Assembly: GCF_016019955.1 (NCBI RefSeq)
Contig: NZ_JAECRZ010000007.1
Span: 62,001-126,000 of the forward strand
Reading direction: 5' to 3'
DNA length: 64,000 bases
Source: Thiosulfatihalobacter marinus
GTDB taxonomy: Bacteria; Pseudomonadota; Alphaproteobacteria; Rhodobacterales; Rhodobacteraceae
The stretch's first letter is position 1. Each line of letters starts with the position of its first letter. The position numbers and the translations under genes were made by a program. The notes under the pieces are model-generated. The model searched no databases. It had not been told where the DNA came from and worked only from the letters and a program-made list of their open reading frames with translations. Positions 25,585 to 49,392 of this stretch are shown piece after piece.

Positions 25585-26670
25585 TTATGAAATGCGGATG
25601 CGCGGGTTGAGGTAAACATAGCCGATATCCGATATCAGCTGTGTCACCAGAACCACGAAGACCGAGACAACCGAGACCGCCAGAAGCATCTCGATATCGT
25701 TATTGCCGGCCGCGTTCACCAGTTGCCAGCCAAAGCCGGTATAGGAAAACAGCGTTTCCACGATCACCACGCCATTAAGCAGCCATGGGAACTGCAACAT
25801 GATGACGGTGAAGGGTGCGATCAACGCGTTGCGCAGGGCGTGTTTGAGAACGATGTTGCGGAAACTCACGCCCTTGAGACGCGCGGTGCGGATATATTGC
25901 GCGGTCATGACCTCGGCCATCGAGGCGCGGGTCATGCGGGCGATATAGCCCATGCCATAGAGGGCGATCGTGACCACCGGCAGGGTGAAGTTTTCAAAGG
26001 TGATCCCGTCCATGGCCGATTTTGCCGTCCCCTTGAACAGCGCCTTGCCCTCGATCAGTCCCATTTCGTTCAGCCATGGCCCCAGACCAAACCGGGTCGA
26101 GGCCAACAGCGCGATAAAGATCACACCCGACACATATTCCGGCGTGGCGGTGGACAGGATCGACGTGGTGGATAGCGTCCGGTCTGTGCGCGACCCCTCG
26201 TTCATCCCGGCCAATACGCCAATGATCAGTGCCGAGGGCACCATCACGACCATCACCCAGAACATGAGCTTGCCGGTATTTGCCAGCCGCGAGCCAAGCA
26301 CATTGGCCACCGGCTCCTTGGCCACGGTGGAAAAGCCCCAGTCGCCTTGCAGGATGCCGCAGAACCGGGGCGTGTCCTCGGCGGCGATACCGGGGCGCAC
26401 GCATTTGCCCAGTTGGGTGCCGTCTTCCTTGACCTTGACGTACCCAGGCAGAACGCCCAGCCATTGCAGATATTTCACTGGTGTCGGTTGCAGATATCCC
26501 CGATCCCCAAGAAAGCTTGCGACGGCTTCTTCGGACATGCGGAAATTGCCCTGGGTCTTGGCCAGTTTCTCAAGGTTCGGATAAAGGTTGGTCAGGAAGA
26601 AAACGATGTATGTCAGGCAGATAGCCGTGAGCACCATCATTCCAAACCGTCTTAAGATGAATAGTCCCAT
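25585..26670 (-). CDS. Peptide-type ABC transporter permease (DppB-like)
   Basis: 361 residues. The typical DppB start MGLFILRRFGMMVLTAICLTYIVFFLTNLYPN precedes a periplasmic loop longer than usual (about 45-115, with two Cys). The conserved transport core follows, with the EAA loop YIRTARLKGVSFRNIVLKHALRNALIAP and the end LFSYTGFGWQLVNAAGNNDIEMLLAVSVVSVF. It is the first gene of the transporter run. No substrate-binding protein gene precedes it: the next 395 bp are non-coding and then comes an AraC regulator. Confidence 0.92.
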   Translation of the reverse strand: MGLFILRRFGMMVLTAICLTYIVFFLTNLYPNLEKLAKTQGNFRMSEEAVASFLGDRGYLQPTPVKYLQWLGVLPGYVKVKEDGTQLGKCVRPGIAAEDTPRFCGILQGDWGFSTVAKEPVANVLGSRLANTGKLMFWVMVVMVPSALIIGVLAGMNEGSRTDRTLSTTSILSTATPEYVSGVIFIALLASTRFGLGPWLNEMGLIEGKALFKGTAKSAMDGITFENFTLPVVTIALYGMGYIARMTRASMAEVMTAQYIRTARLKGVSFRNIVLKHALRNALIAPFTVIMLQFPWLLNGVVIVETLFSYTGFGWQLVNAAGNNDIEMLLAVSVVSVFVVLVTQLISDIGYVYLNPRIRIS

Positions 26671-44011: not shown

Positions 44012-48399
<4,388 letters not shown>

Positions 48400-48415
48400 C
48401 CCGCTAATTCCCCGA

Positions 48416-48445
48416 ATGTTCTCAAATGTTCTCAAATGTTCTCAA
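48416..48445. repeat. Three tandem decamers ATGTTCTCAA
   Basis: Perfect copies at 48416-48425, 48426-48435 and 48436-48445, starting 17 bp after the recG stop. The GTTC cores at 48418, 48428, 48438 and 48449 are spaced 10, 10 and 11 bp. Only the last pair has the N7 spacing of a LexA box. Confidence 0.85.
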
Positions 48446-48452
48446 AAAGTTC
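48438..48452 (+). promoter_or_regulatory. LexA-type SOS box GTTC-N7-GTTC
   Basis: GTTCTCAAAAAGTTC matches the direct-repeat LexA site known from Rhodobacter and other alphaproteobacteria (GTTCN7GTTC). It lies 65 bp above the 40-residue ORF, the only gene on that strand before a strong terminator. A chance match is expected about once or twice per 64 kb, so location and the flanking decamers carry the argument. Confidence 0.6.
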
Positions 48453-48517
48453 TTTACAGAGCGTTAAGGATATGAGAACAAAGTGGCAACAAGATAAACG
48501 AGAGCAGGAGCAGCCCG

Positions 48518-48640
48518 ATGATGTATCAGATCAAAACCGTGATCCGCAATTCACGCGCCACGCTGATTCAAGACGCTGTTGGCGGGGTTGCTGTTGTTGT
48601 CATGATGGTTGTGGCGCTGCACGTGCCCGGCTTTGTCTGA
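48518..48640 (+). CDS. Small membrane protein (40 aa), candidate SOS-induced gene
   Basis: 40 residues: a basic amphipathic start MMYQIKTVIRNSRATLIQDA, one hydrophobic helix (VGGVAVVVMMVVALHV), and the tail PGFV. AGGAG (48506-48510) lies 7 nt before the first ATG; the next codon is also ATG. An alphaproteobacterial LexA-type box lies upstream and a structured region plus terminator lies downstream. By analogy, Caulobacter SidA is a 29-residue SOS-induced membrane inhibitor of division; no sequence identity is claimed. Function is unknown. Confidence 0.65.
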   Translation: MMYQIKTVIRNSRATLIQDAVGGVAVVVMMVVALHVPGFV

Positions 48641-48796
48641 ATTTCTGCCTGCGGCCTTTACGCCGGTCCATCCTCCGCATCCTGTCCCCATTTGTTGATG
48701 CGGTTCGACTGACACTGCCTGTCCCAAGTCCCGAAGGGTTCTGCCTCAATTCCCCTTCAGGGATGGACCGGGTCCCACGTAAAGACGCAATGACTG
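48641..48796 (+). ncRNA. Structured RNA candidate or structured 3' UTR
   Basis: An 11-nt perfect long-range pair, CCGGTCCATCC (48663-48673) with GGATGGACCGG (48761-48771), encloses 87 nt. Inside it CCGCATC pairs with GATGCGG (48675-48681 and 48697-48703), and a short CCC-GAA-GGG hairpin follows near 48730. The interval ends in a strong terminator and has no credible protein frame. It did not show the conserved 4.5S, 6S, tmRNA or RNase P sequence elements I know. It may be the 3' UTR of the 40-aa gene or a separate sRNA. Confidence 0.45.
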
Positions 48797-48832
48797 CCGC
48801 CGCCTCTCGCATGAGAGTGCGGCGGTTTTTTT
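48797..48832 (+). terminator. Strong intrinsic terminator
   Basis: CCGCCGC-CTCTC and GAGAG-TGCGGCGG form a stem of about 12 bp with a GCAT loop, followed by a run of seven T. It ends the short locus that begins at the LexA-type box, 40 bp before the convergent IscU-like gene ends. Confidence 0.9.
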
Positions 48833-48872: not shown

Positions 48873-49325
48873 TCAGGCACAGTTGGCCTGTTCTGCGCGT
48901 TCCATCGCCTCGGCCGTGGCTTCCAGCGACAGCAGGATCGATGCATGGCGGTTCTTGTAATCGCGCGCCGGGCGCAGCACCTGGAGCCCGTCAAAGGGGG
49001 CGGCTGGGGCCGGCCCGTCCTGTTTGAGCATGGCCTTGAGCGCGTCGCGCGCGGTTTCGATTTCCTCGCGATTTCGGCCGATCACATTGGCACCCACCAC
49101 GGCGGCGGCGGCCTGTCCAAGGGCACAGGCCTTAACGTCTTGCCCGAATTCCGTAACCCGCCCGTCCCGCACGACGATATCCACCGTGACCGTAGAGCCG
49201 CAAAGCGGCGAGCGTTTCTTGACGGTCGCGTCAGGGGAGGTCAGCCGGTCGGTATGGGGAATCGCGGCGGCGAGTTGCAGGATTTGTCCCGAATAAAGCT
49301 TGATCAGGTCGTTGTCGCCGGACAT
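48873..49325 (-). CDS. Iron-sulfur scaffold-like protein (IscU/NifU N-terminal family)
   Basis: 150 residues. The IscU-like pattern is SPLCGSTVTVDIVVRDGRVTEFGQDVKACALGQAAAAVVGANVIG: the Asp after the first Cys of IscU is not obvious, but the LCG and ACALG cysteines match cluster-ligand positions. A last Cys is the penultimate residue (EQANCA). The start at 49325 follows AAAGGAA. It is divergent from hisI across 67 bp. Roseobacters keep this stand-alone form; whether it truly builds Fe-S clusters is unproven. Confidence 0.8.
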   Translation of the reverse strand: MSGDNDLIKLYSGQILQLAAAIPHTDRLTSPDATVKKRSPLCGSTVTVDIVVRDGRVTEFGQDVKACALGQAAAAVVGANVIGRNREEIETARDALKAMLKQDGPAPAAPFDGLQVLRPARDYKNRHASILLSLEATAEAMERAEQANCA

Positions 49326-49392
49326 CGCGGTTTCCTTTGTTGCCTGATTCCTAGATAGAGGGCAAAAGCCGCGATGCAAAGGGGACAATGGT

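Follow-up and report, generated by a model that had tools for sequence, protein, structure and literature searches.

Which genetic element occupies the interval behind recG in Thiosulfatihalobacter marinus, and could it respond to DNA damage? SOS regulons are usually described as a set of repair proteins together with a division inhibitor. The Rhodobacteraceae are abundant in the sea and are producers of gene transfer agents, and we know of no account of how they arrest after damage. We analyzed a window of 64,000 nt from this species (assembly GCF_016019955.1, contig NZ_JAECRZ010000007.1, positions 62,001-126,000 of the forward strand). In the window, 18 bp separate the end of the recG stop codon (48399) from the first GTTC of a cassette that has the same order across the Rhodobacteraceae: LexA-type operators, a core promoter, an ORF for a 40-aa membrane protein, a multi-hairpin RNA, and a terminator. 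Its parts are as follows.

46309-48399, plus strand: recG, the upstream neighbour (NCBIfam RecG NF008164, 1100 bits)
48418-48421 and 48428-48431 (within 48418-48437), plus strand: extra GTTC half-sites, N6-spaced, read from the sequence
48438-48452, plus strand: LexA-type operator GTTC-N7-GTTC, letters GTTCTCAAAAAGTTC, abutting the -35 (152/152 loci)
48453-48458, plus strand: -35-like TTTACA, conserved at 72-100% per base in 142 loci
48473-48481, plus strand: proposed extended -10, TGAGAACAA, 14 nt past TTTACA, conserved at 94-100% per base in 142 loci
48476-48490, minus strand: a second box of the LexA type, GAAC-N7-CAAC, in opposite orientation to the first (GAAC in 148/152 loci)
48506-48510, plus strand: Shine-Dalgarno sequence AGGAG
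48518-48640, plus strand: conserved 40-aa ORF with one membrane segment predicted from hydropathy (about residues 20-40)
48650-48789, plus strand: structured 3' RNA, from folding and covariation, with a bulged closing helix (48650-48673/48761-48789) and three hairpins
48797-48832, plus strand: intrinsic terminator, from folding and a terminator search

A preliminary description of this DNA had reported one GTTC-N7-GTTC box, a 40-residue ORF with a ribosome site, a single membrane helix, an 11-bp long-range stem, and a strong terminator. The ORF with its ribosome site and the terminator were present as listed, the hydrophobic segment was borne out by prediction, and the stem (48663-48673/48761-48771) continues into a longer closing helix through 48650-48662/48778-48789. 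The box itself was also there, but as part of a four-half-site array accompanied by the inverted box, not as a single site. The computational check proposed there, whether box, ORF, and RNA fold are conserved together in relatives, came out positive.

We searched for the cassette in 198 Rhodobacteraceae genomes, one per genus. The ORF sequence matched 128 of the 198, once in each (E <= 0.01), and the pattern GTTCTNANAAAGTTCTTTACA, with at most 2 mismatches, was detected in 137, as a single site except in G089, G146, and G161 (two each). The loci of all 128 ORF-found genomes and of 27 more found by the pattern were then examined, giving 155. The full promoter was identified in 152 of these 155 genomes. 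Because promoters were scored with the cassette consensus, the count carries some ascertainment bias, yet 127 of the 128 ORF-found genomes were positive, as were 25 of the 27 pattern-found ones. Scores ranged from 26 to 39 of 39 in the 152 loci, and the reversed-consensus control, at one spacer length, did not score above 24 of 39. The promoter was scored absent for G157 (ORF-found) and for the sites of G146 and G090 that were examined first. The latter two (L124 and L119, respectively) were excluded from the promoter, ORF, terminator, and RNA-model counts as chance promoter matches. The second site of G146 (L440, about 1168-1240) was later found to be a divergent cassette behind recG with GTTCTTAAAAAGTTC-TTGACG and a family ORF (E 8e-8); it keeps the N7 pair, its downstream GAAC boxes are displaced relative to the -35, and its RNA match is weak (E 0.047). 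We left the count of 152/155 as scored despite this cassette. The pattern site of G056, with neither recG nor a family ORF, is a chance match. G157 is the sole ORF-found genome without a GTTC promoter between recG and the ORF (L209), and its RNA-model match is kept (E 3.2e-4); this genome is 80% complete and has no lexA match, and we treat it as an anecdote.

An exact promoter scan across GTDB returned at least 118 stretches, and the titles listed were from Rhodobacteraceae or Rhodobacterales, or from unplaced alphaproteobacterial or Pseudomonadota bins. Among the matches listed, recG lay on the same strand in 80/80 loci and ended 9-545 nt upstream, and the ORF was present in 79/80. The upstream neighbour was also the less variable one, with recG in 29/30 loci versus a SufU-like downstream neighbour in 21/30. 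In the window, this downstream neighbour lies on the minus strand at 48873-49388, and its likeness to a SufU-type Fe-S protein is below the cut-off (TIGR01994, 48.9 of 92.5 bits). Within the window's genus, all 25 genomes searched contained the ORF. The ORF profile matched five genomes in a class sample of 289, namely four from the family and a fifth in which a weak, partial match of 22 positions lies inside a 401-aa frame; clear kin outside the Rhodobacteraceae was not found in this sample.

The bare count of GTTC-N7-GTTC is weak, with 4 sites in the window versus 1.75 expected; in the whole genome of T. marinus, 138 sites were counted. We nevertheless judged the box to be strong because it is conserved in 152/152 promoter-bearing family loci. 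In the window, the four half-sites are arranged as GTTC-N6-GTTC-N6-GTTC-N7-GTTC at 48418-48452 (starts 48418, 48428, 48438, and 48449). A half-site one N6 step upstream of the pair was present in 130/152 loci and a further one in 28/152. The inverted second box is half-degenerate (GAAC-N7-NAAC, mostly CAAC) and covers -10/+1. NAAC was located at exactly N7 in 147/152 loci, compared with 1-14 at seven other spacings, in the forms CAAC (127), TAAC (10), GAAC (6), and AAAC (4). The spacer from TTTACA to the proposed -10 was 14 nt in 142 loci, 13 nt in 5, and 15 nt in 5. A generic sigma-70 scan found no consensus promoter and did not pick up the -35-like TTTACA. The N7 pair combined with the -35 pattern (<=2 mismatches) revealed no co-regulated genes across the 198 genomes.

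We compared these boxes with those of lexA and uvrA. The lexA box was GTTC-N7-GTTC in 30/30 loci (46 genomes searched), overlapping the -10, with a TTGACA-like -35 before it. The same form was found for uvrA in 23/30 family loci (the box site of L283 is covered by N), apparently upstream of the presumed uvrA -35, and at one uvrA locus the box reads GTTCTTAAAAAGTTC, which is common at the cassette loci too. Several points go against a LexA/SOS reading of the cassette. Immediately before the second GTTC, 147/152 cassette loci have A, versus T or C in 59/65 lexA/uvrA boxes, and the additional half-site stands at N6, a spacing that the lexA/uvrA boxes do not share. The second half of the inverted box is mostly CAAC, and the exact N7 pair is present in 24 of the 25 loci of the window's genus, L302 having a broken box with ATTC as its second half. 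The negative sigma-70 scan and six promoter carriers without a lexA match are further points of this kind. A lexA match was found in the window's own genome (C11:383520-384215) and in 185/198 family genomes. Seven of the 13 without one carry the ORF and/or the promoter: six keep the promoter, and G157 has the ORF without it. The six are 86% (G028), 100% (G069), 95% (G158), 89% (G159), 96% (G160), and 64% (G196) complete, and genome incompleteness is not an easy explanation for all of them because three (G158, G160, and G069) are rated 95-100% complete. The presence of lexA versus that of the cassette across the 198 genomes is not informative on its own.

Additional features were observed at the lexA and uvrA loci themselves. 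In 11/30 lexA promoters (L237-L240, L244, L250, L251, L253, L257, L258, and L263) there was at least one additional overlapping box, with three tandem GAAC half-sites at N7 and four in L258. In many of the 30 uvrA loci (L264-L293), a TTGGAGACTCG-like element is located about 10 nt after the LexA-type box, followed by CTATNT. In Dinoroseobacter shibae, in-silico LexA sites have been described for lexA, recA, dprA, and others, and by term count recG goes without mention in the accessible part of that paper (PMC6473078).

The GTTC array could instead be bound by another regulator, such as an OmpR/PhoB-type direct-repeat activator, with envelope or other stress as the signal. The half-sites in tandem, at distances of 10 and 11 bp and immediately 5' of the -35, would suit such a protein, and the spacer base and the lexA-negative promoter carriers point the same way. 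However, GTTC-N7-GTTC is the lexA and uvrA box of this family, and the inverted GAAC-N7-NAAC at the -10 fits a repressor. With about one site of the tight pattern per genome, no wider regulon of another factor is seen. CenR of Rhodobacter sphaeroides was rejected as the binder because its motif, given as TGA-N8-TGA in the accessible text of PMC9275681, does not fit. Taken together, we consider binding by another regulator unlikely. LexA is probably the protein that binds the cassette boxes, and induction of the cassette in the SOS response is likewise probable. The LexA of Rhodobacter sphaeroides is reported both as repressing and as helping transcription, so LexA could also act as an activator here.

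To what kind of protein does the ORF correspond? A family ORF was present in 152/152 promoter loci; 116 were exactly 40 aa, 150 started with ATG, and a few low-scoring ones (23-30 aa) were probably mis-started. Within the genus, pN/pS was 0.27 (300 pairs, uncorrected counts) versus 1.45 and 2.72 when the frame was shifted, and this comparison of frames shows codon-level (purifying) selection on the ORF. The most strongly kept residues were D19 (150/152), G22 (149/152), L34 (149/152), and P37 (136/152). All 148 proteins of at least 36 aa contained an 18-residue stretch with hydropathy of at least 1.6, and AlphaFold2, run on the single sequence, returned one helix at residues 2-35 (pLDDT 86.8). 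On these predictions alone, the product would be a single-span membrane protein of very small size. The preliminary description had also noted a basic start, which is true of the window's protein and does not extend to the family, where residues 1-19 have a median net charge of 0, with a positive value in 54/148. Pfam and NCBIfam contained no family above the cut-off for the ORF, and PHROGs and PADLOC gave no match at E <= 1. Below the cut-off were matches to PsbI (E 0.33) and Psb34 (E 0.067).

By analogy, the predicted protein resembles SidA of Caulobacter crescentus, which the accessible text of PMC4211646 describes as a 29-aa, SOS-controlled protein of the inner membrane acting on FtsW. The likeness is an analogy in size class and presumed type of regulation, and the two differ in length (29 versus 40 aa). 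In a strict sense, the cassette protein would then bind FtsW/FtsN and stop septation after damage, which would be compatible with the explanation that we prefer below. Against it, there is no clear sequence kin beyond the Rhodobacteraceae in the 289-genome class sample. We regard a SidA-type inhibitor as conceivable rather than probable, and hold the same tentative view of action on a divisome target in general. To our knowledge, no structured RNA tail has been described for SidA. DidA of Caulobacter crescentus, also named as a model in the preliminary description, is likewise small, membrane-located, and part of the response to damage. It turned out to be a poor model because it is SOS-independent and induced by DriD, according to the accessible text of PMC4211646, whereas the cassette has LexA-type boxes in 152/152 loci.

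We next examined the RNA. The stretch of 194 nt that follows the ORF folds with an MFE of -82.4 kcal/mol (z -5.79; 0/200 shuffles as stable), and the whole presumed transcript folds at z -3.95. The closing helix encloses three hairpins at 48675-48703, 48707-48730, and 48733-48758. In the genus alignment (25 sequences), 95.2% of 984 cells were paired, compared with 38-47% in slid controls; 20/41 pairs changed on both sides, and 0/500 shuffles were as high on all five measures. RNA model A2 was based on 24/25 genus sequences, omitting L315, whose 5' part differs. The genus covariance model R1 scored 135.6 bits at 48644-48789, with the window's sequence included in building the model. At E <= 0.01, with matches taken without a place-by-place check, the genus model matched 46/94 plus 30/59 sources (153 of the 155 genomes), and it matched 38/80 GTDB loci among the matches listed. 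A match in only about half of the family suggests that the rest are too diverged for the genus model at this threshold. A family alignment of 66 matches, which was fitted to the structure and includes some weak matches (E <= 1), had changes on both sides in 28/29 pairs and pairing in 89.9% of cells. The counts of G-U versus A-C were 81 versus 5 for the genus and 111 versus 39 for the family, an imbalance that favours the plus (mRNA) strand.

This strand preference bears on the possibility that the locus is a type I toxin-antitoxin system, in which RNA would control a membrane-damaging peptide. TisB and DinQ of Escherichia coli are LexA-controlled small hydrophobic peptides under RNA control, toxins with antisense RNAs, and the cassette resembles them in its LexA-type box, its small hydrophobic ORF, and the adjacent structured RNA. 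In contrast to them, it is conserved in one place, with a single match per genome behind recG family-wide, and its RNA structure is on the mRNA strand. Purifying selection and the near-invariant polar D19 also speak against a toxin, as does the lack of a minus-strand promoter in a simple consensus scan, which missed the plus-strand promoter too. We therefore consider an SOS membrane toxin of this kind very improbable.

The RNAs share a short repeated motif. Among 146 RNAs, which are related and not independent sequences, CTGTCCC occurred 175 times versus 5.0 in shuffles and CTGCCTG 173 times versus 4.7. CTGYCY was present in 0 copies in 4 RNAs, 1 in 10, 2 in 24, 3 in 34, 4 in 46, 5 in 18, 6 in 7, and 7 in 3 (median 4). 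The unpaired fraction was 0.80 for CUGCCU and 0.71 for CUGUCC, compared with 0.58 for other 5-pyrimidine 6-mers and 0.43 for all positions; the CUGYCY pairing and copy counts refer to 142/146 RNAs, with UTRs longer than 260 nt excluded. CsrB, LhrC, and CcsR are multi-loop decoy or C-rich-loop sRNAs that carry one short motif in several loops. The cassette RNA is similar to them in this arrangement, with the differences that its motif is CUGYCY and that Rfam has no match at the RNA, the only hit being a chance snoRNA match over the promoter (snoR13, E 0.95). A terminator was found by rule in 146/152 loci. The six without one were G174, G150, G137, G060, G160, and G026, of which G160 runs off the contig end and G150 and G137 have terminator-like hairpins by eye.

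The RNA might merely be a 3' UTR that stabilizes or ends the mRNA, leaving the protein as the sole product of interest. The element comes after the ORF, and the same simple scan, blind as it was to the plus-strand promoter, gave no separate RNA promoter, as would be expected of a 3' UTR. The repeated motif and the helix covariation well outside the terminator argue against it, and we rate a mere 3' UTR as improbable, somewhat less so than a toxin. Action of the RNA in trans is, in our judgement, moderately likely, and one continuous transcript presumably covers both the ORF and the RNA.

The anatomy of the cassette, its conservation, its promoter architecture, and the selection on coding sequence and RNA structure are established by sequence. 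The explanation that we lean towards, if only slightly, is a LexA-repressed SOS cassette with one dual-function transcript encoding a membrane effector and a 3' sRNA. LexA would bind GTTC-N7-GTTC at the -35 and the inverted GAAC-N7-CAAC at -10/+1, and RNA polymerase would therefore be kept off, with the upstream half-sites providing cooperativity. DNA damage would lead to LexA cleavage and to an RNA of roughly 345 nt. Translation of the 5' part would yield the 40-aa protein of the inner membrane. Its Asp and Gly at the membrane border, both near-invariant, may contact a target in the membrane, for which the machinery of division or of the envelope is the most likely candidate. The 3' part, a closed multi-hairpin structure with a U-tailed terminator, would act as an sRNA or be processed to one, and its repeated CUGYCY loops could pair with mRNAs or bind a protein. 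For arrest after damage, the locus offers a precise candidate gene of 40 codons in which two residues are near-invariant, and it adds a strongly supported structured RNA without an Rfam match that is apparently tied to the SOS response. A bolder reading, which we hold to be possible but doubtful, is a family-wide SOS checkpoint in which one transcript carries a new class of 40-aa divisome or envelope protein and a new class of multi-loop CUGYCY regulator. If so, the RNA would sequester an RNA-binding protein or silence many mRNAs at once, and one damage signal would act jointly at the membrane and at the post-transcriptional level.

Neither small membrane proteins induced in the SOS response nor dual-function RNAs are new as kinds. 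What appears to be new here, as judged from the libraries searched and the open literature, is a protein and an RNA that match no searched library, and their combination. We found no prior naming of the locus in the accessible passages of open papers. Pos19 (RSs0019) of Rhodobacter sphaeroides, from the same order, is also a small coding RNA (150-nt sORF) with sRNA activity. It is not located behind recG and was rejected as the same RNA, as place, promoter, and size all differ. EcpR1 was set aside because the mention of recG concerns a cloning fragment only. For the trans-sRNAs of Ruegeria pomeroyi, the accessible part of the source gives no positions to compare with the cassette RNA. Elsewhere in the window, the plus strand at 25830-26008 matched the Ruegeria cis52 sRNA (Rfam RF02647, 119.9 bits).
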